A DNA stretch of 64,000 bases from Rubrivivax sp. (GTDB lineage Bacteria; Pseudomonadota; Gammaproteobacteria; Burkholderiales; Burkholderiaceae_C), in contig JAUXVE010000075.1 of NCBI GenBank assembly GCA_030680415.1, positions 1-64,000 on the forward strand. Reading direction: 5' to 3'. Position numbers and translations under genes: made by a program. Below the pieces are notes generated by a model. That model was not told where the DNA came from and ran no database searches. It was given only the letters and a program-made list of their open reading frames with translations. Below are positions 1,307 through 50,771 of this stretch, piece after piece. Each line of letters begins with the position of its first letter. Position 1 is the first letter of the stretch.

Positions 1307-4300
1307 TCAGGCGGCCGCCGCGTCGACCGGGGCCGCGTGCTGGCGTCGATTGAAGGCGTAGTACAGGACCGGGATCACGACCAGCGTCAGCAGCGTCGAG
1401 ACGAGGATGCCGAACAGGAGCGAGATCGCCAGCCCGTTGAAGATGGGGTCGTCGAGGATGAACAGCGCGCCCGTCATCGCCGCCAGCGCGGTCAGCGCGA
1501 TCGGCTGTGCGCGCACGGCGGCCGAGTTCACCACGGCGTCCCTGAAGGCCACGCCCTGGCTCACCTGCAGCTCGATGAAGTCGACGAGCAGGATCGAGTT
1601 GCGCACGATGATGCCGGCCAGCGCGATCATGCCGATCATCGAGGTGGCGGTGAAGTTGGCGCCGAACAGGGCATGGCCCGGCATCACGCCGATGATGGTC
1701 AGCGGGATCGGCGCCATGATGATCAGCGGCGTCTTGTAGCTCTTGAATTGCGCCACCACCAGCAGGTAGATCAGGATCAGCCCGACGCCGTAGGCCGCGC
1801 CCATGTCGCGGAAGGTCTCGTAGGTGATCTGTGATTCGCCGTCCCACTTGATGGCGTATTCGCGGTACGGGTCGGCCGGCTGGTTGATCCAGTATTCGCC
1901 CAGCGCGCCGGTGCCCGGCAGGGCCGCTGCGGCCAGCTTGCCGCGAATGCCGAACAGGCCGTACAGCGGCGAGTCGGGCGTTTCGCCGCCGGCGCCGACG
2001 TCGGCGTAGACATAGCTCACGCCCATCAGATCCTTGGTGAACAGCGGCTTGTCGGCCACGCCGCGCTCCACGCGCACCAGTTCCGACAGCGGCACGAGCT
2101 GCCCGTTGGCCGCACGCAGCGGCAGCGCCAGCAGTGCGTCGAGCCCCACTTGCGCCTCGCGCGGCAGTTGCAGCCGCACCGGCACCGGGTACTTGCTCTG
2201 GCCGTCGTGCAGCCAGGCCGCGTCGGTGCCCGACAGCGCGCCTTGCACCGTGGCGGCCACCGCACTCACCGGGATGCCCAGCGATTCGGCACGCTGGCGC
2301 TGCACACGCAGGAAGGCGCGCGGCGCGTCGTCGTGCAGCGAGGTGTCGATGGCGGTGATGTCGGGCGTGGCCGCAAAGGCCTGTGCCACCCTTGCCGCGA
2401 GCTGCTGGCGGCCGGCTTCGCTGGGGCCGTAGACCTCGGCCACCAACGGGCTCATCACCGGCGGACCGGGGGGCACCTCCACCACCTTCAGCCGCGCACC
2501 GTGGCGCTCGGCGATCACCTCCAGCGCGGGCCGCAGGCGTTGCGCGATGGCGTGGCTCTGCTCGTCGCGGTGCGCCTTGTCGACCAGGTTGATCTGCAGG
2601 TCGCCCTGCTCGGCGTCGGCGCGCATGTAGTACTGGCGCACCAGGCCGTTGAAGGTGATGGGGCTGGCCGTGCCGGCGTAGCCCTGCATGTCCAGCACCT
2701 CGGGCTGCTGGGCCAGGAAGCCGGCCATCTCGTGCAGCGCCGCCGCCGTGTCCTCCAGCGGCGTGCCGGCCGGCATGTCGACGACGAGCTGGAATTCGCT
2801 CTTGTTGTCGAAGGGCAGCATCTTCAGCACCACCCACTGCACGGCGGCCAGGCCCACGGACAGCATCAGCGCCACCAGAATGCCGGCCAGCAGCAGCCAG
2901 CGCTTGCGCGCGCTCTCCAGGAAGGGCGTCAGCAGGCCCGCGAAGGCACGCGACATCGCCCTGCTGACCTTGCTCGGCGCATGCTGGCCGTGCGGGTGCT
3001 CGCCCAGCGTGTCGTGCGGCTTCATCAGCTTCAGCGCCAGCCAGGGCGTGACGGTGAAGGCGATGGCCAGCGACAGCGCCATGCCCAGGCTCGAATTGAT
3101 CGGGATCGGGCTCATGTACGGCCCCATCAGGCCGCTCACGAAGGCCATCGGCAGCAGCGCCGCGATAACGGTCAGCGTGGCCAGGATGGTGGGCCCGCCG
3201 ACCTCGTCCACCGCGACGGGGATGATGTCCTTGAGCGCGCGCGTCGGGTCCAGCAACTGGTGGCGGTGGATGTTCTCGACCACCACGATGGCGTCGTCGA
3301 CCAGGATGCCGATGGAGAAGATCAGCGCGAACAGGCTCACGCGGTTGAGCGTGAAGCCCCAGGCCCAGCTCGCGAACAGCGTCGCGGTGAGCGTGAGGAT
3401 GACCGCCGCGCCGACGATCACCGCCTCGCGCCGGCCCAGCGCCAGGCCGACCAGCAGGATCACCGAGGCGGTGGCGAAACCCAGCTTCTGGATCAGCTTG
3501 TTGGCCTTTTCGGCCGCGGTGGCGCCGTAGTCGCGCGTGATCGTGGCTTCGACGTTGGCCGGGATCACGGTGTTGCGCAGGTCGTCCACGCGCTGGCGCG
3601 CGGCGCGCGCCACGTCGACGGCGTTCTGGCCCGGCTTCTTGGTCACGGTCAGCGTCACGGCGGGATAGCCGCCGGCGCCGGCGGCCTGCTGGGCATCGGC
3701 GCCGGCCGCGTTGGCGCCCGGTGTGAACCACACGTAACGGGCCGGCTGGGCCGCGCCGGCCTCGACCTGCGCGACCTCGCGCAGGAACACCGGCTTGCCC
3801 TGGTGCACGCCGACGACGAGGTTCTCCACGTCTTCTGCCGAACGCAGGAATTCGCCCGTTTCCACCGCCAGCGAACGGCCGGCGCCGGTGTCGTCGATCA
3901 CGGTGCCGGCGGGCATGGCCTGGTTGGCGGCGGCCAGCGTCTGCTTCAGGCGCAGCAGGTCGACGCCGCGTTCGCGCAGCCGCTCGGGTTGCAGCGTCAC
4001 CTGCAGCGTGCGGCCGGGGCCGCCGATGGTCTGCACCTCGCGCGTGCCTGGCACGCGCTTGAGCTCGGACTCCATCGCGTGGGCCACACGCTCCAGCTCG
4101 ACGCCGCTGGTCCTGTCGCGGCTCCACAGCGTGACCGCCAGCACCGGCACGTCGTCGATGCCCTTGGGCCTGACGATCGGCGGCAGCGTGCCTAGGCCGG
4201 CGGGCAGCCAGTCCTGGTTGGCGTTGAGCACGTCGTACAGGCGTACCAGCGCCTCGGTGCGCGGTACACCGACGTTGAACTGCACCGTCAACACCGCCAT

Positions 4301-4615
4301 GCCCGGGCGCGACACCGAATAGGTGTGCTCGATGCCGGCGATCTGGCTCAGCACGTGTTCGGCCGGCCGCGCCACCATGTTCTGCACGTCGGTGCTGCTG
4401 GCGCCGGGGAAGGCGATCAGCACGTTGGCCATCGTGACGTTGATCTGCGGCTCTTCCTCGCGCGGCGTCACCAGCACGGCAAAGACGCCGAGCAGCAGCG
4501 CCACCAGTGCCAGCAGCGGTGTCAGCGCGTTGGACTGGAAGGCGCGCGCCAGGCGGCCGGACACGCCCAGGTCGGGGGGCGCCGAGGCGCCGGCCGGTGT
4601 CGGGTGCGGGGTCAT
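1307..4615 (-). CDS. RND efflux transporter permease (AcrB/HAE-like)
   Basis: This 1102-residue inner-membrane protein is an RND-superfamily pump. It has an N-terminal transmembrane helix, a large periplasmic loop, a mid-protein block of membrane segments, a second periplasmic loop and a C-terminal membrane block. The proton-relay pair D440-D441 is present in the TM4 motif GILVDDAIVVVEN. It should exchange protons for export of a hydrophobic or toxic compound together with the adjacent adaptor and an outer-membrane channel that is not encoded here. The ATG at 4615 lies 11 bases after the adaptor stop, so the two are surely co-transcribed. The lack of heavy-metal (CusA-type) methionine clusters argues for an HAE-type drug/solvent pump, though the CsoR-type regulator leaves metal or sulfur stress open. 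Confidence 0.93.
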   Translation of the reverse strand: MTPHPTPAGASAPPDLGVSGRLARAFQSNALTPLLALVALLLGVFAVLVTPREEEPQINVTMANVLIAFPGASSTDVQNMVARPAEHVLSQIAGIEHTYSVSRPGMAVLTVQFNVGVPRTEALVRLYDVLNANQDWLPAGLGTLPPIVRPKGIDDVPVLAVTLWSRDRTSGVELERVAHAMESELKRVPGTREVQTIGGPGRTLQVTLQPERLRERGVDLLRLKQTLAAANQAMPAGTVIDDTGAGRSLAVETGEFLRSAEDVENLVVGVHQGKPVFLREVAQVEAGAAQPARYVWFTPGANAAGADAQQAAGAGGYPAVTLTVTKKPGQNAVDVARAARQRVDDLRNTVIPANVEATITRDYGATAAEKANKLIQKLGFATASVILLVGLALGRREAVIVGAAVILTLTATLFASWAWGFTLNRVSLFALIFSIGILVDDAIVVVENIHRHQLLDPTRALKDIIPVAVDEVGGPTILATLTVIAALLPMAFVSGLMGPYMSPIPINSSLGMALSLAIAFTVTPWLALKLMKPHDTLGEHPHGQHAPSKVSRAMSRAFAGLLTPFLESARKRWLLLAGILVALMLSVGLAAVQWVVLKMLPFDNKSEFQLVVDMPAGTPLEDTAAALHEMAGFLAQQPEVLDMQGYAGTASPITFNGLVRQYYMRADAEQGDLQINLVDKAHRDEQSHAIAQRLRPALEVIAERHGARLKVVEVPPGPPVMSPLVAEVYGPSEAGRQQLAARVAQAFAATPDITAIDTSLHDDAPRAFLRVQRQRAESLGIPVSAVAATVQGALSGTDAAWLHDGQSKYPVPVRLQLPREAQVGLDALLALPLRAANGQLVPLSELVRVERGVADKPLFTKDLMGVSYVYADVGAGGETPDSPLYGLFGIRGKLAAAALPGTGALGEYWINQPADPYREYAIKWDGESQITYETFRDMGAAYGVGLILIYLLVVAQFKSYKTPLIIMAPIPLTIIGVMPGHALFGANFTATSMIGMIALAGIIVRNSILLVDFIELQVSQGVAFRDAVVNSAAVRAQPIALTALAAMTGALFILDDPIFNGLAISLLFGILVSTLLTLVVIPVLYYAFNRRQHAAPVDAAAA

Positions 4616-4626
4616 CGGCGCCCCGC

Positions 4627-5742
4627 TCACTGTGCGGCCGGCACGGCGCCGGCGAGCCCGGCGCGCACCGGGTCGAGCGCGATGCGCTCGCCGGGCTGCA
4701 GGCCGGCCAGCACTTCGACGCCGGCGCCCTGCGCCGCACCCAGACGCACGGCCTTGAGCACGAAGCGCGTGTCCTGCACGGCGTAGACCGCCGTCAGTTC
4801 GCCGCGGCGCAGCACGGCGGCGGCAGGCACCGTCAGGCGGCCCGGCGTGGCGGCGCCAACGGTGGCCGCGGCGCCGGTGAAGCGCACGCGAACGTTCTGG
4901 CCGGGCTGCAGGCCGGCGCTGTCGGCCGCGGACAGGTCCAGCCGCCATTCGATGGTCTGCGATACCGGGTCGGTGCCCGGCAACTCGGTGCGGGCGGCCG
5001 GCGTGACCCAGCGGCCGTCGTCGCCGCCCGGCAGCTGCACCTGGACCGCCGCGGCGCCGCGCGCCGCCGCCGAACGCGAGGCCGGCAACTGCACCACGGC
5101 GCGCATGCGGCCGGGGGCATAAAGGGTGACTAGCGGCCGGCCGGGGCTGGCCAGTTCACCGGTTTCGACGTGGGTGGCCAGCACGACGGCGTCGAACGGC
5201 GCCGTCACGGCGGCAAAACCACGCGCCAGCGCGGCCTGGGTACGGCCCGACTGCGCCTGCTGCACACCCGCCTGCACGGCCCTGAGCTGGGTCTCGGCGA
5301 CGTCCAGCGCCGCCTGGCTGATGAAGCCCTGCGCGCGCAACTCGCGCGAGCGTTCGGCGTTCAGCCTGGCGTTGCGCAGTTCGGCATCGGCCTGCGCCAC
5401 CGCGGCCTCGCTGCGCGCCAGTCCGGCCTGCGCGTCGCGCGCGTCGATGCGCGCCAGCAACTGCCCGGCCTTGACGCGGTCGCCGGCCTTCACGGCCAGC
5501 TGCAACACGTTGCCGCCCAGCTGCGCCGCCACCGTGCTTTGCTGCAGTGCCTGCAGGCTGCCGTCGATCTCGAAGCCGGCGCCGGATGTGCTGGCGCCGA
5601 CCAGAACCGTGGGCACCGCGGGTGGCGCGGCGAGCGCCGTGCTGTTGCCGAGCAGGGCCCCGAGGAGGGCCGCCAGAGCGGCGGTCAGGGCACGCCGACG
5701 GCTACCGGACAGGGGGTTGCGGGGGCTCGTTTTGTATACCAT
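4627..5742 (-). CDS. RND efflux periplasmic adaptor (membrane fusion protein)
   Basis: This 371-residue adaptor has an arginine-led signal peptide (RRRALTAALAALLG, cleavage near residue 38). It is followed by a lipoyl/barrel-sandwich segment (about 60-95), a helical hairpin rich in Ala, Gln and Arg (about 100-165), a return lipoyl strand, a beta-barrel and a membrane-proximal domain. It bridges the RND pump to an outer-membrane channel. The only plausible start is the ATG at 5742, because the signal peptide leaves no later candidate. That codon lies within the first of two ATACC-N6-GGTAT inverted repeats. AGGA lies 8 bases before the ATG, but the same bases can be read as a -10 box, in which case the mRNA would be leaderless. 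Confidence 0.9.
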   Translation of the reverse strand: MVYKTSPRNPLSGSRRRALTAALAALLGALLGNSTALAAPPAVPTVLVGASTSGAGFEIDGSLQALQQSTVAAQLGGNVLQLAVKAGDRVKAGQLLARIDARDAQAGLARSEAAVAQADAELRNARLNAERSRELRAQGFISQAALDVAETQLRAVQAGVQQAQSGRTQAALARGFAAVTAPFDAVVLATHVETGELASPGRPLVTLYAPGRMRAVVQLPASRSAAARGAAAVQVQLPGGDDGRWVTPAARTELPGTDPVSQTIEWRLDLSAADSAGLQPGQNVRVRFTGAAATVGAATPGRLTVPAAAVLRRGELTAVYAVQDTRFVLKAVRLGAAQGAGVEVLAGLQPGERIALDPVRAGLAGAVPAAQ

Positions 5743-44195: not shown

Positions 44196-44654
44196 CGCCG
44201 AAGCTTAACGCCCGCGCCGCAGCCTTGCAGCGCTGGTGTCGAATGTCGCACACGGCGGGTGCGAAATGGCGTTGCGGCACCCAGGGCGGCTCGGATATCT
44301 TTGCACCGGGCAGTGAGCGGGTCATTCACTGCAGCCGGCGGACGCGAGGAACCTTCACTGGGCGTGGTGCTCCATGGTGGTGCAGGGGGTGTGTCGGCGC
44401 AATCGGGAAGTCGAACGTTGTCACTGCACCGCGCTCGAAGACTGCAAACTGTCGGGAGAAGGGGGGCTTCATTGCGGCCTTGCCCCGCCGCAGCATGAAC
44501 CATGCTAAACACGGGGTGTTGCTGATCGCGCTTCGCCAGTGACCGGAAAGCTCTGATGGAGCCCGGGCCCGTACAGCCGGGACTCCATCAGAACTTCCCA
44601 GGCTCGGGAGGGGGACCGTCCCCCACCGCGTCCGCCTGGACACCGGAGGCCCGC
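44196..44654. other. Long leader/intergenic region before prkA
   Basis: These 459 bases hold no convincing gene. They separate otsB and prkA, which diverge. Near the prkA end are two hairpins (44552-44592 and 44610-44624), so a structured 5' leader is likely. I looked for a sigma-54 promoter (GG-N10-GC), known for E. coli yeaGH, and found no good match. Confidence 0.45.
44552..44592 (+). promoter_or_regulatory. Long hairpin in the prkA leader
   Basis: TCTGATGGAG (44552-44561) pairs perfectly with CTCCATCAGA (44583-44592), and the inner CCCGG/CCGGG (44562-44566 with 44577-44581) extends it to about 15 pairs with one bulged base. A second small hairpin (GGGGGA-CCG-TCCCCC, 44610-44624) follows. 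No T-run follows either, so a regulatory or mRNA-stability role is more likely than termination. Confidence 0.55.
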
Positions 44655-46577
44655 ATGGATGTGATCAGCCACTTTGCCGCCCGCTACGAGCGCACGCGCG
44701 AGGAGGAAATGTCCCTCGAGGACTACCTCGCCGAGTGCAAGCGCAACCCGCTGACGTACGCCACCGCCGCCGAGCGCATGCTCAAGGCCATCGGCGAGCC
44801 GCAGACCGTGGACACGCGCAACGAGCCGCGCCTGTCGAGGCTGTTCGCCAACAAGCTCATCAAGGTCTACCCGGCCTTCGCCGAGTTCTACGGCATGGAA
44901 GACGCCATCGAGCAGGTGGTGAGCTACTTCCGCCACGCCGCGCAGGGGCTGGAAGAAAGGAAGCAGATCCTCTACCTGCTGGGCCCGGTGGGCGGCGGCA
45001 AGAGCTCGATCGCCGAGCGGCTGAAGCAGCTCATGCAGGAAGTGCCCTTCTACGCCATCAAGGGCAGCCCGGTGAACGAGAGCCCGCTCGGGCTGTTCGA
45101 CATCAATGAGGACGGCCCCATCCTGGAAAGCGAATACGGCGTACCGCACCGCTACCTCAACCGCATCCTCAGCCCCTGGGCGGTGAAGCGGCTGGAAGAG
45201 TACGGCGGCGACATCCGCAGGTTCACGGTCGTCAGGCGCTACCCGTCGATCCTCAAGCAAATCGGCATCAGCAAGACCGAGCCCGGCGACGAGAACAACC
45301 AGGACATCAGCAGCCTGGTCGGCAAGGTCGACATCCGCAAGCTCGAGACCTACGCCCAGGACGACCCCGACGCCTACAGCTACAGCGGCGGCCTGTGCCT
45401 GGCCAACCAGGGCCTGCTCGAATTCGTGGAAATGTTCAAGGCGCCGATCAAGGTGCTGCACCCGCTGCTGACCGCCACCCAGGAAGGCAACTTCAAGGGC
45501 ACCGAAGGTTTCGGCGCCATCCCCTTCGACGGCATCGTTCTCGCGCACAGCAACGAGAGCGAGTGGAAGGCCTTCCTCAACAACAAGAACAACGAAGCCT
45601 TCCTCGACCGCATCTACATCGTCAAGGTGCCGTACTGCCTGCGCGTCAGCGAAGAGGTCAAGATCTACGAGAAGCTGCTCAGGAACTCGTCGCTGGCCCA
45701 GGCCACCTGCGCGCCGGGCACGCTGAAGATGATGAGCCAGTTCGCCATCCTGACAAGGCTCAAGGAACCCGAGAACTCGTCGCTGTATTCCAAGATGCTC
45801 GTCTACGACGGCGAAAATCTCAAGGACACCGACCCGCGCGCCAAGAGCTACCAGGAGTACCGCGACTACGCCGGCGTCGACGAGGGCATGAGCGGCGTCA
45901 GCACGCGCTTCGCCTACAAGATCATCAGCAAGGTCTTCAACTTCGACAGCACCGAGGTCGCCGCCAACCCGGTGCACCTGATGTACGTGCTGGAGCAGCA
46001 GATCGAGCGCGAGCAGTTCGCCAAGGAGACCGAGGACAAGTACATCGGTTTCATCAAGGAACTGCTGGCGCCGCGTTATGCCGAATTCATCGGCAAGGAG
46101 ATCCAGACCGCCTACCTGGAAAGCTACAGCGAGTACGGCCAGAACATCTTCGACCGCTACGTCACCTACGCCGACTACTGGATCCAGGACCACGAGTACC
46201 GCGACACCGACACCGGCGAGGTCTTCGACCGCGGTGCGCTGAATGGTGAGCTGGAGAAGATCGAGAAGCCCGCCGGCATCGCCAACCCCAAGGACTTCCG
46301 CAACGAGATCGTCAACTTCGTGCTGCGCGCACGCGCCAACAACCAGGGCAACAACCCGGTGTGGACGAGCTACGAGAAGCTGCGCACGGTGATCGAGAAG
46401 AAGATGTTCTCCAACACCGAGGAACTGCTGCCGGTGATCAGCTTCAACGCCAAGGCCAGCGCCGACGAGGCCAAGAAGCACGAGGACTTCGTCACCCGCA
46501 TGGTGGCCAAGGGCTACACGCCCAAGCAGGTGCGGCTCCTGTGCGAGTGGTACCTGCGTGTCCGAAAGAGCTCATGA
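44655..46577 (+). CDS. prkA: PrkA-type serine protein kinase (YeaG)
   Basis: This 640-residue protein has an N-terminal AAA+ domain with Walker A GPVGGGKSS (about 110-118) and a C-terminal PrkA kinase-like domain (TSYEKLRTVIEKKMFSNTEELLPVISF). PrkA/YeaG is induced in nitrogen starvation and stationary phase and phosphorylates unknown targets; relatives were also reported as AAA+ proteases. The ATG at 44655 has GGAGG 6 bases upstream. It heads the conserved prkA-yeaH-spoVR operon, but here 133 bases with paired REP-like repeats separate it from yeaH. Confidence 0.96.
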   Translation: MDVISHFAARYERTREEEMSLEDYLAECKRNPLTYATAAERMLKAIGEPQTVDTRNEPRLSRLFANKLIKVYPAFAEFYGMEDAIEQVVSYFRHAAQGLEERKQILYLLGPVGGGKSSIAERLKQLMQEVPFYAIKGSPVNESPLGLFDINEDGPILESEYGVPHRYLNRILSPWAVKRLEEYGGDIRRFTVVRRYPSILKQIGISKTEPGDENNQDISSLVGKVDIRKLETYAQDDPDAYSYSGGLCLANQGLLEFVEMFKAPIKVLHPLLTATQEGNFKGTEGFGAIPFDGIVLAHSNESEWKAFLNNKNNEAFLDRIYIVKVPYCLRVSEEVKIYEKLLRNSSLAQATCAPGTLKMMSQFAILTRLKEPENSSLYSKMLVYDGENLKDTDPRAKSYQEYRDYAGVDEGMSGVSTRFAYKIISKVFNFDSTEVAANPVHLMYVLEQQIEREQFAKETEDKYIGFIKELLAPRYAEFIGKEIQTAYLESYSEYGQNIFDRYVTYADYWIQDHEYRDTDTGEVFDRGALNGELEKIEKPAGIANPKDFRNEIVNFVLRARANNQGNNPVWTSYEKLRTVIEKKMFSNTEELLPVISFNAKASADEAKKHEDFVTRMVAKGYTPKQVRLLCEWYLRVRKSS

Positions 46578-46710: not shown

Positions 46711-47997
46711 ATGCAACACATCGTCGACCGGCGGCTGGCGGGCAAGAACAAATCCATCGGCAACCGCGAGCGCTTCCTGCGCCGCCACAAGGAGCAGATC
46801 CGCGAGGCGGTCAAGCGCGCCATCGACGGCCGCGGCATCCGCGACATCGAACGCGGCGAGGACATCCACATCCCCAGGCGCGACATCTCCGAGCCGGTGT
46901 TCGGCCACGGGCAAGGTGGCGTGCGCGAGATCGTGCACCCGGGCAACAAGGAATACGTCAGCGGCGACCGCATCGCGCGGCCCAAGGGCGGCGGCGGTCA
47001 GGGCGGCGGCCAGGGCCAGGCCAGCGACCAGGGCGAAGGCGAGGACGACTTCGTCTTTGCACTGTCGAAGGAAGAGTTCATGCAGGTCTTCTTCGAGGAC
47101 CTGGCGCTGCCGCACCTGTTGCGCACGCAACTGGCCGAAGTGCCGGAATGGAAGAGCCAGCGCGCCGGCTTCAGCAGCGACGGCACGCCCAACAACCTGC
47201 ACGTGGTGAGGTCGATGCGCGGCGCCTTGAGCCGGCGCATCGCGCTGGGCGCCGCGTCGCGGCGCGAGCTGGTCGAAGTCGAAGATCGCCTGGCTGAATG
47301 CCGCCGGATGCTGCAGCCCGGCGACGCGGTGATGGAAGCCGAGATCAAGGCTCTGGTGGCGTGCATCGAGGCGCTGCGCCACCGCGTCGGCCGCATCCCC
47401 TACCTCGACCCCATCGACCTGCGCTACCGCAGCCGCATCCGCGTGCCGGTGCCCACCAGCAAGGCGGTCATGTTCTGCCTGATGGACGTGTCGGGGTCGA
47501 TGGACGAAGGCCGCAAGGAACTGAGCAAGCGCTTCTTCATCCTGCTGTACCTGTTCCTGACGCGACACTACGAGAAGATCGAACTCGTCTTCATCCGCCA
47601 CCACACGCAAGCCGCCGAGGTCGACGAAGAGAACTTCTTCCACGCCCGCGAAACCGGCGGCACCGTGGTCAGCAGCGCGCTGGTGCTGATGGAGGAGATC
47701 GTCAAGGCACGCTATGCGCCGGGTGAGTGGAACATCTACGGTGCCCAGGCCAGCGACGGCGACAACTGGCACCACGATAGCGGCCGCTGCCGCGAGTTGC
47801 TGAACGACAAGCTGCTGCCCCTGTGCCGCTACTTCGCCTACGTGCAGGTGGCCGAGGAAGAGCAGAACCTGTGGGACGAATACACCCAGCTGCTCGACGC
47901 CAACCGCCACTTCGCGATGCGCAAGGCCACCGAACCGTCGATGATCTACCCGGTGTTCCGCGACCTGTTCAAGAAGGAAGGGGCGAAGGCGGCATGA
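46711..47997 (+). CDS. yeaH: DUF444 protein with von Willebrand A-like domain (YeaH)
   Basis: This 428-residue protein has the DUF444 N-terminus (HIVDRRLAGKNKSIGNRERFLRRHKEQIREAVKRA), a Gly/Gln-rich linker (about 92-105) and a VWA-type metal site DVSGSMD near residues 259-265. YeaH works with YeaG in starvation survival, though its biochemistry is unknown. Its stop overlaps the spoVR start (ATGA), so those two are translationally coupled. Confidence 0.95.
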   Translation: MQHIVDRRLAGKNKSIGNRERFLRRHKEQIREAVKRAIDGRGIRDIERGEDIHIPRRDISEPVFGHGQGGVREIVHPGNKEYVSGDRIARPKGGGGQGGGQGQASDQGEGEDDFVFALSKEEFMQVFFEDLALPHLLRTQLAEVPEWKSQRAGFSSDGTPNNLHVVRSMRGALSRRIALGAASRRELVEVEDRLAECRRMLQPGDAVMEAEIKALVACIEALRHRVGRIPYLDPIDLRYRSRIRVPVPTSKAVMFCLMDVSGSMDEGRKELSKRFFILLYLFLTRHYEKIELVFIRHHTQAAEVDEENFFHARETGGTVVSSALVLMEEIVKARYAPGEWNIYGAQASDGDNWHHDSGRCRELLNDKLLPLCRYFAYVQVAEEEQNLWDEYTQLLDANRHFAMRKATEPSMIYPVFRDLFKKEGAKAA

Positions 47998-50771
47998 AGA
48001 TCAAGGCCATCGCTCTGGAACAGCCGCTGCCGCTGGCAAGCCGCCCCGGCGAACCGCTGCCGGCGCCCAGCGACTGGTCCTTCGAGCTCATCGAGCAGTA
48101 CCACCGCGTGATCCGTGCCACCGCGGCGCGCTTCGGCCTCGACACCTACCCCAACCAGCTCGAGATCATCACCGCCGAGCAGATGATGGACGCCTACGCC
48201 AGCGTGGGCATGCCGGTGAACTACCGCCACTGGAGCTACGGCAAGGAGTTCATCGCCACCGAGAAGAACTACAAGCGCGGCCACATGGGCCTGGCCTACG
48301 AGATCGTCATCAACGCCAACCCCTGCATCAGCTACCTGATGGAGGAGAACACGATGGCCATGCAGGCGCTGGTGATCGCGCACGCCGCCTACGGCCACAA
48401 CAGCTTCTTCAAGGGCAATTACCTGTTCCGCATGTGGACCGACGCGGCGTCGATCATCGACTACCTCGTCTACGCCAGGAACTACGTCACCGCGTGCGAG
48501 GAAAAACACGGGCTCGACGCGGTGGAGACCTTCCTGGACAGCTGCCACGCGCTGGCCAACCACGGCGTCGACCGCTACCGGCGCCCGGCACGCAAGAGCC
48601 TGGCGCAGGAACTCAGCGAGCGGCTGGACCGCGAGGCCTACGCGCAGCGCCAGGTCAACGAGCTCTGGCGCACGTTGCCGCGCCAGGCCGCCAAGGAGAC
48701 CGGCGCCGCCGAGAGCCGGCGTTTCCCCGAAGAGCCGCAGGAAAACCTGCTCTATTTCATCGAGAAGAACGCGCCGCTGCTCGAACCCTGGCAGCGCGAG
48801 GTCGTGCGCATCGTGCGCAAGGTAGCGCAGTACTTCTACCCGCAGCGGCAGACGCAGGTGATGAATGAAGGCTGGGCCTGCGTTACCGGCGACACGTTGA
48901 TCGTCACCGACAGTGGCCTGATGCCGGCATTGGAACTCGTCGACACCCAGTTCGACGGTGCGGTGGAAGACGGCAACCGCGTCGTCGACTGGTTCAAGCA
49001 TGCTCACCGCAAGCGCGTGCGCCTGGTGACGCGGCATGGCTACGTCCTGCACGGCGGCGCCGACCACAAGATCCTGGTCGGGGACGACTGGGTCGAGTTG
49101 CAGTCGCTGAAGGTCGGCGACCGCGTGGAGATCCGTCGCGGCCGCTCGGTCTTCGCGGCGAACGAGGCGCCGATCGACTACGACACCGGCTCGCGCCCGC
49201 GCCTGGCTGAAATCTGCGCCCGCCATGGGGTATCGCCGAACACGTTCGCGAAGTGGCAGTCCGGTGCCAAGGGCTTGCGCGTGGGCGCCGAGTGCCAGCA
49301 GCGGCTGCAGGCCTGCGGCCGCGAGTGGCTCGCTGCCAAGCACGATCCTGCGCAGCCGCTCACACTGGTCGACGCCGGCGATCTGTCACGCCGGCCAGGG
49401 ACCCTCGGCCCCGATCTCGCCGAGGTGCTGGGGCAGCTTACCGGTGACGGCTTCGTCGAGACTTCGCATTCCGGCCGCATCAACCTGACATCACAGGACG
49501 AGACGCTGCTGGACTTCTTCGAGCGCACCATGGACCAGCAGTTCGGGCTGCAGGCTCGTCGCCGACCCGATCGCAATCACTTCAACAGCACGGTGCACAG
49601 CGCTGCGCTGGCGCGTGTGCTCGTCTGCAACTTCCAGTTTGCCCAGGGCCTGGGCGCCGCCGAGCGCAAGCAGGTGCCCGACATCGTGCTTCGCTCTCCC
49701 CGGCCCGTGGTCACGGCCTTCCTGCGCGGCCACTTCGACACCGACGGCTGCGTCTCGGTGCGCGACCGGCAGGTGATCCTGGTCAGCAAGAGCCTGGAAT
49801 TGCTGCGCACGGAACAACTGCTGCTGCTCAACCTGGGCATCGTGTGCTCGGTGCGGCCGCAGAAGGACGGTACGTACCGGCTCGTGATCACCGGGTCCGA
49901 CCTGCAGACCTACGCTTCTTCAATCGGCTTTCGGCTGCCGTCGAAGCAGGCGGCGCTGCAGGCGGTGCTCGAGCAGACGCGGTGGTTCCTGAAGAAGGAC
50001 AACACCACCACGATCGAAGCCCTCACCCTCGACGAAGGGCCGGTGGTCGACTTCAGCGTCGAGAACTCGCACGCCTACAAGGCGTCGTGCTTCATCAACC
50101 ACAACTGCTTCTGGCACCACAAGCTGCTGAACACGATGTACGACGACGGCTTCCTGACCGACGGCGTGATGATCGAGTGGCTGAAGTCGCACACCAACGT
50201 CATCTACCAGCCGCCGGCGGGGCACCCGGCGTACAGCGGCATCAACCCCTACACGCTGGGTTTCGCGATGTATACCGACATCGTGCGCATCTGCGAGCAG
50301 CCCACCCCCGAGGACCGCGACTGGTTCCCCAGCCTCGCCGGCACGCCCTGGTTGCCGGCGCTGGGCCAGGCCATGCGCAACTTCAAGGACGAGAGCTTCA
50401 TCGGCCAGTACCTGAGTCCCAAGCTGATGCGCGAGCTGCGCCTGTTCGCCATCACCGACGACGAGAAGCAGAACGAGCTCGAGGTCAGCGCCATCCACGA
50501 CGAAAGCGGCTACCGCCGCGTGCGCGAGTCGCTCAGCCATCAGTACGACCTGGGCTCGCGCGAGCCCAACATCCAGGTCTGGAACGTCAACCTGCGCGGC
50601 GACCGTTCACTGACGCTGCGCCACTTCCAGCACAACGAGCGCCCGCTGCACGAAAGTGCCACCGAGGTGCTCAAACACGTGGCGCGGCTGTGGGGATTCG
50701 GCGTGCAGCTGGAAAGTGTCGACGCCAAGGGCGACGTGACCAAGCGCTGGCAGTTGCCGGCGCCGGCGTGA
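47994..50771 (+). CDS. spoVR: SpoVR-family protein interrupted by an intein
   Basis: The 925-residue precursor comprises SpoVR residues 1-295, an intein at 296-704, and the rest of SpoVR (705-925). Removing the intein leaves 516 residues, the normal SpoVR length, and restores the conserved motif MNEGWA-CFWHHKLLN. SpoVR-type proteins (YcgB in E. coli) accompany YeaG/YeaH in stress and stationary phase; their biochemical role is unclear. Family features in the exteins include PNQLEIITAEQMMDAYAS, the HWSYGK motif and HAAYGHNSFFKGN. The start overlaps yeaH (ATGA). Unless the intein splices, the protein is split in a highly conserved block. Confidence 0.96.
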   Translation: MKIKAIALEQPLPLASRPGEPLPAPSDWSFELIEQYHRVIRATAARFGLDTYPNQLEIITAEQMMDAYASVGMPVNYRHWSYGKEFIATEKNYKRGHMGLAYEIVINANPCISYLMEENTMAMQALVIAHAAYGHNSFFKGNYLFRMWTDAASIIDYLVYARNYVTACEEKHGLDAVETFLDSCHALANHGVDRYRRPARKSLAQELSERLDREAYAQRQVNELWRTLPRQAAKETGAAESRRFPEEPQENLLYFIEKNAPLLEPWQREVVRIVRKVAQYFYPQRQTQVMNEGWACVTGDTLIVTDSGLMPALELVDTQFDGAVEDGNRVVDWFKHAHRKRVRLVTRHGYVLHGGADHKILVGDDWVELQSLKVGDRVEIRRGRSVFAANEAPIDYDTGSRPRLAEICARHGVSPNTFAKWQSGAKGLRVGAECQQRLQACGREWLAAKHDPAQPLTLVDAGDLSRRPGTLGPDLAEVLGQLTGDGFVETSHSGRINLTSQDETLLDFFERTMDQQFGLQARRRPDRNHFNSTVHSAALARVLVCNFQFAQGLGAAERKQVPDIVLRSPRPVVTAFLRGHFDTDGCVSVRDRQVILVSKSLELLRTEQLLLLNLGIVCSVRPQKDGTYRLVITGSDLQTYASSIGFRLPSKQAALQAVLEQTRWFLKKDNTTTIEALTLDEGPVVDFSVENSHAYKASCFINHNCFWHHKLLNTMYDDGFLTDGVMIEWLKSHTNVIYQPPAGHPAYSGINPYTLGFAMYTDIVRICEQPTPEDRDWFPSLAGTPWLPALGQAMRNFKDESFIGQYLSPKLMRELRLFAITDDEKQNELEVSAIHDESGYRRVRESLSHQYDLGSREPNIQVWNVNLRGDRSLTLRHFQHNERPLHESATEVLKHVARLWGFGVQLESVDAKGDVTKRWQLPAPA
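48879..50105 (+). mobile_element. Intein with LAGLIDADG homing endonuclease in SpoVR
   Basis: This 409-residue intein starts at Cys1 (CVTGDTLI, block A) and ends FINHN, with the extein resuming at Cys+1. Block B is GYVLHGGADHKILV (H63), with Gly in place of the usual Thr of TxxH. Two LAGLIDADG motifs are present, VLGQLTGDGFVE (183-194) and FLRGHFDTDGCVS (281-293), both keeping the acidic residue. Block F is VVDFSVENSHAY and block G CFINHN, with the penultimate His and terminal Asn needed for cyclisation. Residues 107-130 look like a helix-turn-helix. The element should splice out of the protein and may be able to home into empty spoVR alleles. Confidence 0.95.

Follow-up and report, generated by a model that had tools for sequence, protein, structure and literature searches.

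An in-frame intein in the SpoVR gene of Rubrivivax, probably a homing element, and its relatives in bacteria and viral contigs

The SpoVR gene in a 64,000-nucleotide stretch of Rubrivivax sp. DNA (contig JAUXVE010000075.1 of assembly GCA_030680415.1; this whole stretch is hereafter the window) carries a 409-residue in-frame insert, which is confirmed on its sequence features as an intein of class 1 type. With a probability of roughly 90%, we regard this insert as a homing intein of full length whose speciality is SpoVR. The element in the window is best read as selfish and is favoured as such over a regulatory switch, because its distribution among genomes and the selection acting on it fit homing.

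The interrupted SpoVR gene and the anatomy of its intein

The insert lies in the third gene of a regular PrkA-DUF444-SpoVR cluster, and the features on which the analysis is based are listed below by their positions in the window.

44556..46577, + strand: prkA (YeaG-type AAA kinase), first gene of the PrkA-DUF444-SpoVR cluster; open frame, exact start approximate
46711..47997, + strand: DUF444 (YeaH-type) protein; Pfam PF04285, 1.2e-178
47994..50771, + strand: SpoVR precursor gene, 925 residues including the intein; open frame and Pfam
47994..48878, + strand: N-extein, SpoVR residues 1-295, ending in ...MNEGWA; PF04293 profile 1-276
48879..50105, + strand: intein of 409 residues, precursor residues 296-704; sequence, Pfam, NCBIfam and relatives
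48879..48917, + strand: block A with Cys1, CVTGDTLIVTDSG; sequence and alignments
49038..49079, + strand: block B, GYVLHGGADHKILV, with His63 and with Gly60 replacing the usual Thr; alignments
49203..49277, + strand: helix-turn-helix-like stretch between the splicing and endonuclease parts; weak Pfam matches under cut-off
49416..49451, + strand: LAGLIDADG motif 1, LAEVLGQLTGDG, with Asp190; PF14528
49710..49748, + strand: LAGLIDADG motif 2, VTAFLRGHFDTDG, with Asp289; PF14528
50037..50084, + strand: block F, GPVVDFSVENSHAYKA; alignments
50085..50105, + strand: block G, SCFINHN, with penultimate His and terminal Asn; alignments
50106..50108, + strand: Cys+1 codon TGC; Thr in 50/50 intein-free genus genes read
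50106..50771, + strand: C-extein from Cys+1 FWHH to the stop; PF04293 profile 269-406 and SpoVR_C

A preliminary description of this DNA had placed a 409-residue insert within the conserved SpoVR motif MNEGWA/CFWHH and predicted that its removal would leave a SpoVR of 516 residues, and each of these points was borne out by the open frame and by the Pfam analysis. The SpoVR profile PF04293 matched the 925-residue protein as a whole (E 5.7e-170) and was split in two around the insert (profile 1-276, E 4.3e-125; profile 269-406, E 4.7e-43), the pieces meeting at residue 295/296; conserved SpoVR is restored on removal of the insert, as in class 1 inteins. The family assignment was further supported by PRK11767 (870 bits against a cut-off of 679) and by the neighbouring genes, the PrkA frame matching AAA_PrkA (7.3e-178) and PrkA (1.9e-67) over 44652-46577, and the DUF444 stop sharing 4 bases with the SpoVR start. 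In comparison with the SpoVR/YcgB family (PF04293) of such clusters, both halves of the protein are high-scoring and gene order is retained, whereas the intein interruption and the junction Cys, where genus relatives have Thr, set it apart. Four residues of the motif at the insertion site (Asn, Glu, Ala, His) do not vary among 36 aligned sequences, and from this location it is plausible that SpoVR activity depends on splicing. A search with the N-part of one relative found no solved relative of SpoVR.

The stretches which we take to be blocks A, B, F and G of the intein scheme are all present, together with Cys1, the terminal His-Asn and Cys+1, much as first described. The departure is in block B, for which most inteins have the consensus TxxH: in the window's intein it reads GADH, with Gly60 at the Thr position. 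His63 and Gly60 are invariant in the 12 aligned bacterial inteins, and the Thr position is Gly or Ser in the viral relatives compared. The block F core VVDFSVENSHAYKA is followed by the FINHN end and Cys+1, as expected of class 1. Cys1, Gly60, His63, Asp190, Asp289, Asp391, His398, His408 and Asn409 are invariant in the five inteins of the window's genus, all of which possess the GDG and DTDG of the two LAGLIDADG motifs; such paired motifs with acidic residues are what a homing intein would be expected to have.

LAGLIDADG_3 (PF14528) matched the insert in two stretches (3.2e-22). The insert scored 23.6 bits (5.1e-5) against Intein_splicing and 21.0 bits against NCBIfam intein_Nterm, below curated cut-offs of 35.8 and 24.5 that are detection thresholds and not biochemical criteria. 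Its best NCBIfam matches were intein-bearing RNR, DnaB, IF-2 and GyrA, all under cut-off, and so were the matches of the helix-turn-helix-like stretch at intein residues 109-133 (HTH_Tnp_1, E 0.0033; HTH_23, E 0.033). Cys1, the block B His, block F, the His-Asn end, Cys+1 and a LAGLIDADG endonuclease are features of known class 1 inteins. The best relatives of solved structure by sequence were PI-PkoII (2.3e-8; PDB 2cw7), V-ATPase inteins and the Mtu RecA intein (2imz). The insert has the above features in common with PI-PkoII and the Mtu RecA intein, and differs from class 1 LAGLIDADG inteins in its SpoVR host, its Gly or Ser in block B and its helix-turn-helix-like stretch, the best match reaching only 36.6 bits.

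Bacterial carriers, mobility and the insertion site

The same insert, at the identical SpoVR codon, was found in 14 bacterial genomes from the window's genus, the Competibacteraceae and the family of Allochromatium, which rules out chance or a misread frame. Whole-genome searches for the SpoVR family gave five carriers in the genus (81 genomes, SpoVR being matched in 65 when fragments are counted), five in the Competibacteraceae (39 genomes, 29 with a match) and four in the family of Allochromatium (194 genomes, 93 with a match), where locus L058 of genome G474 was recovered; family assignments follow the named locus on which each search was centred. GTDB contigs scanned with the five genus inteins yielded 162 stretches fitting the pattern, which came to 11 loci, 11/11 of them in SpoVR at the identical codon. 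Besides the window's own intein, no carrier was found among 369 genomes sampled from the class, 103 of which have a SpoVR match, nor among 398 sampled from the phylum and searched with the exact DNA pattern; the SpoVR intein is rare outside a few groups. Beyond the window, SpoVR inteins are present in 13 more bacterial genomes and in many viral contigs.

Other inteins were seen in these genomes. The window's genome holds, outside the window (L013, on G000:C26), a second intein of 374 residues in a host that appears by eye to be ribonucleotide reductase-like, of which a near copy (L006) occurs in genome G034; the SpoVR read from G034 is intein-free. In A. palmeri (G472 C174, L065) there is a further intein-like insert, its host GyrB-like by eye.

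On a quick SpoVR tree that includes long rows (160 rows from 159 genomes, G508 entering twice; the +1 residue and fragment-only rows excluded), the 14 scattered carriers need 13 state changes. At least one intein transfer between bacterial families is demonstrated by tree placement, because the SpoVR and the intein of locus L137 (genome G622) group with different families: its SpoVR falls within the family of Allochromatium, and its intein groups with Competibacteraceae inteins at 98/96. Vertical descent with loss may account for much of the intein's history: across the 91 pairs of carriers, intein identity rises with SpoVR identity (r 0.79), and in only 31/91 does the intein exceed SpoVR in identity. 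Close relatives differ in whether they carry the intein at this one site, and this, along with horizontal spread, is as expected of a homing intein.

Such scatter, together with the selection and decay described next, is the usual life cycle of homing inteins. The endonuclease of the genus inteins is under purifying selection: mean dN/dS over the five (Nei-Gojobori, synonymous sites partly saturated) was 0.22 there, compared with 0.24 and 0.30 in the splicing parts, 0.21 in SpoVR and 0.51 in the helix-turn-helix stretch. The endonuclease of L058 is decayed: its helix-turn-helix stretch is shortened, Asp190 is replaced by Gly and Asp289 by Glu, and its dN against three relatives is 0.30 in the endonuclease and 0.16 in the splicing parts, compared with 0.10 and 0.08-0.11 among the three relatives themselves. 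In L136 the first LAGLIDADG Asp is Gly.

The residue that occupies the site in intein-free SpoVR is Thr in 50/50 genes of the genus (10 more SpoVR-positive genomes have SpoVR fragments and lie outside the 50), in 23/23 of the Competibacteraceae and in 60/73 rows of the family of Allochromatium, the other rows there being 12 Cys from 11 genomes and 1 Ser. In intein-free viral SpoVR the motif could be read in 83 distinct sequences, with Thr in 39, Ser in 38, Cys in 5 and Val in 1, and was unreadable in 11 more. The site thus nearly always offers a splicing nucleophile, the residue of intein-free SpoVR there being Thr, Ser or Cys with few exceptions. The idea that Cys+1 is a simple footprint of lost inteins was not upheld generally, and Cys at the site is no proof of past occupation, because 11/210 genomes of the family of Allochromatium have Cys without an intein. 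Nine of these (L211-L219) are long or separate, divergent SpoVR lineages; G607 is the sister of carrier G622 and G508 stands alone on the tree, and only the Cys sites of these two could be intein footprints.

The contrast between carriers and non-carriers of the genus is greatest over the eight codons that precede the site, where synonymous identity is 0.60 between the two groups, 0.79 within the carriers and 0.77 within the non-carriers. All 5/5 carriers have AAT at codon -5, as do 5/50 non-carriers (Fisher 7e-5, kinship ignored). GCA at codon -1 is present in four of the five intein-free AAT alleles and in none of the other intein-free genes among the 50 read; two of these four alleles, L017 and L020, lie away from the carriers on the SpoVR tree. 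The intein-free sister of the window's gene, in G034 (DNA identity 0.964 and 0.914 in the two SpoVR parts), has GCA ACT TTT across the insertion point, the one place among its 495 codons where three in a row end in A or T, an ending found in 6.9 percent of them. These unusual codons would suit a site that has become resistant to cutting by the homing enzyme, and may be read as recoding for immunity or as a trace of intein loss.

SpoVR inteins in viral contigs

The viral contigs described here are viral as classed by their collections. An initial viral scan with the five genus inteins gave nothing, and the viral link came from a phage collection and later scans. The phage collection, searched with the intein, returned 9 records, of which the lowest E-value belonged to a 636-kb uncultured phage (41 percent over residues 1-85). 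The gene concerned is SpoVR with a 129-residue intein lacking an endonuclease, inserted two residues upstream of the bacterial position (NEG/C...HN/CATF, compared with NEGWA/C...HN/CFWH in bacteria); Cys occupies that upstream position in 13/83 intein-free viral SpoVR.

SpoVR-seeded scans of IMG/VR gave at least 164 loci with 102 distinct SpoVR, of which 8 had at least one intein among the matches listed; two of the 8 were recognised by eye or match length and not by every filter, and in one scan the query included the intein, so that its ranking favours carriers. A scan with the intein clade as query gave 127 relatives, of which 79 loci were kept; among the best 23 of the 79, which were those read, the closest 22 are all in SpoVR and the next (L407) is not. 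These 22 comprise 21 full-length inteins and the mini-intein, many of them near-identical.

Six insertion positions were discerned in viral SpoVR: a, as in the window; a', two residues upstream; and b to e, directly after DAY, GHS, YPQ[MG]Q and YEMVIN respectively. Up to two inteins occur per viral SpoVR gene in one reading frame, as follows.

L304, 3334-4263 and 4735-5955: inteins at c and a'
L389 and L394, 2093-3412 and 4001-5209: inteins at e and a

All inteins at a and a' in the refined tree fall into a single clade of 26 rows (95/93); L342, L304 site c, L283, GyrB and Streptomyces were left out of this tree as long rows, and eight viral rows were added to it. The bacterial subclade has 100/100, and a single change between a and a' is needed. 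In an earlier tree of 33 rows, long rows included, the clade, taken without L342, had 90/79. Identity between its viral and bacterial members is about one third, and no recent transfer of the intein between virus and bacterium is apparent.

Viral L342, whose intein lies at exact site a, belongs to another intein lineage, so that site a has been hit at least twice. The L342 intein (3835-4701) and the L304 intein at c (3334-4263) are mutual nearest relatives on the 33-row tree (100/99, long branches), which would suit the move of an intein from one place in SpoVR to another. Viral inteins at the other positions were rejected as close relatives of the window's intein: trees place those at sites c, d and e apart from the clade, the one at b gave a local match only (probability 33 percent), and a viral scan with the site-b intein as query returned just two contigs already found. 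Large inteins of 517 and 522 residues are present at YPQ[MG]Q/T in L315 (3796-5346) and L333 (3802-5367), with no clear LAGLIDADG by eye.

A PrkA part and DUF444 lie ahead of viral SpoVR in L283 (44-2989, Pfam), and a DUF444-like frame was seen by eye beside viral SpoVR in L302 (1746-3041). The jumbo phage RsoM2USA is reported to encode SpoVR and PrkA, an intein being unmentioned in the text (PMC8504454); this phage was not one of the 4 records that a further search returned. The inteins of mycobacteriophages likewise sit in conserved motifs, at several sites in one protein (terminase) and sporadically, with phages proposed as carriers (PMC5050341). The present case differs in having a stress-cluster protein, SpoVR, as host and in that members of one clade, bacterial or viral, share a site or lie 2 residues apart.

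Mechanism, rival explanations and significance

Judging from its residues, Cys1 would attack the Ala-Cys bond, Cys+1 would then take over the thioester, Asn409 would cyclise and SpoVR would be ligated as MNEGWACFWHH. The LAGLIDADG part is predicted, from residues and distribution, to cut intein-free SpoVR alleles, and repair of the cut allele would copy the intein with a few flanking codons. Viruses with their own SpoVR could act as reservoir or shuttle. Only tentatively do we entertain the wider reading that SpoVR may be an intein arena shared by phages and bacteria, in which a single clade has its insertion shifted by two residues in the same motif of the same protein, and bacteria that have lost or escaped the intein carry a recoded target.

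It was suggested at the outset that the intein could act as a post-translational switch. On such a reading, splicing would be withheld until a stress signal, for example a redox change at Cys1, Cys404 or Cys+1, renders SpoVR active. E. coli ycgB, yeaG and yeaH are among the stress hubs listed in PMC9501238, conditional splicing is documented for other inteins (PMC8557812) and Cys404 is invariant in the 12 aligned bacterial inteins; on the other hand, the intein is absent from 50/55 genus genes read at the site, it comes and goes across the SpoVR tree, its endonuclease is retained although needless for a pure switch, and the Cys404 position is Cys in just 1/22 of the listed viral ends. A conserved target with a ready nucleophile would explain the stress-protein host equally well, and inteins in general favour conserved sites (PMC2814812); the switch is improbable.

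Still less likely is a Hint insertion that is splicing-dead or only cleaves, leaving two SpoVR fragments. The missing block B Thr and the splicing models under cut-off would be in keeping with it, but Cys1, the terminal His-Asn and Cys+1 are kept in 14/14 bacterial carriers, SpoVR and the splicing parts are under purifying selection, and L058 keeps its splicing ends intact despite the decayed endonuclease. An assembly or binning artefact is hardly credible: metagenome bins make up almost the whole set of named carriers (10 of the 11 GTDB-scan loci), and among the Competibacteraceae copies the C-part is broken by runs of N in L053 and L055 while L052 stops at a contig end, yet the intein is also present on a 143-kb contig of the named strain Allochromatium palmeri DSM 15591 and on a 3.2-Mb contig of G548, and the window's copy stands in a regular cluster. 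Unless the contig of A. palmeri is itself wrong, this strain refutes an artefact. A selfish homing intein continues to be our preferred reading.

Inteins have mostly been reported from replication and nucleotide-metabolism proteins. SpoVR had been put forward as an unusual host, and no earlier report of an intein in SpoVR, stage V sporulation protein or YcgB was found in the main texts of the open-access literature. SpoVR is unmentioned as an intein host in the passages found in two papers on huge-phage inteins (PMC12363816, PMC13282480), the inteins described in one paper on Allochromatium are in other proteins, and no open-access literature on inteins with homing endonuclease in uncultivated viral genomes was found. 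As far as could be seen, SpoVR is new as an intein host protein and the element itself is of known type.

For annotators, intein-interrupted SpoVR genes need not be broken ones, and A. palmeri DSM 15591 provides a named carrier strain open to bench work. Overall, an intein family specialised on SpoVR in bacteria and viral contigs would open three questions to testing: the reason for the presence of SpoVR in viruses, where one contig also has PrkA and DUF444; the way in which an intein can end up two residues from its earlier place inside a motif; and the possibility that hosts become immune by recoding a homing site.
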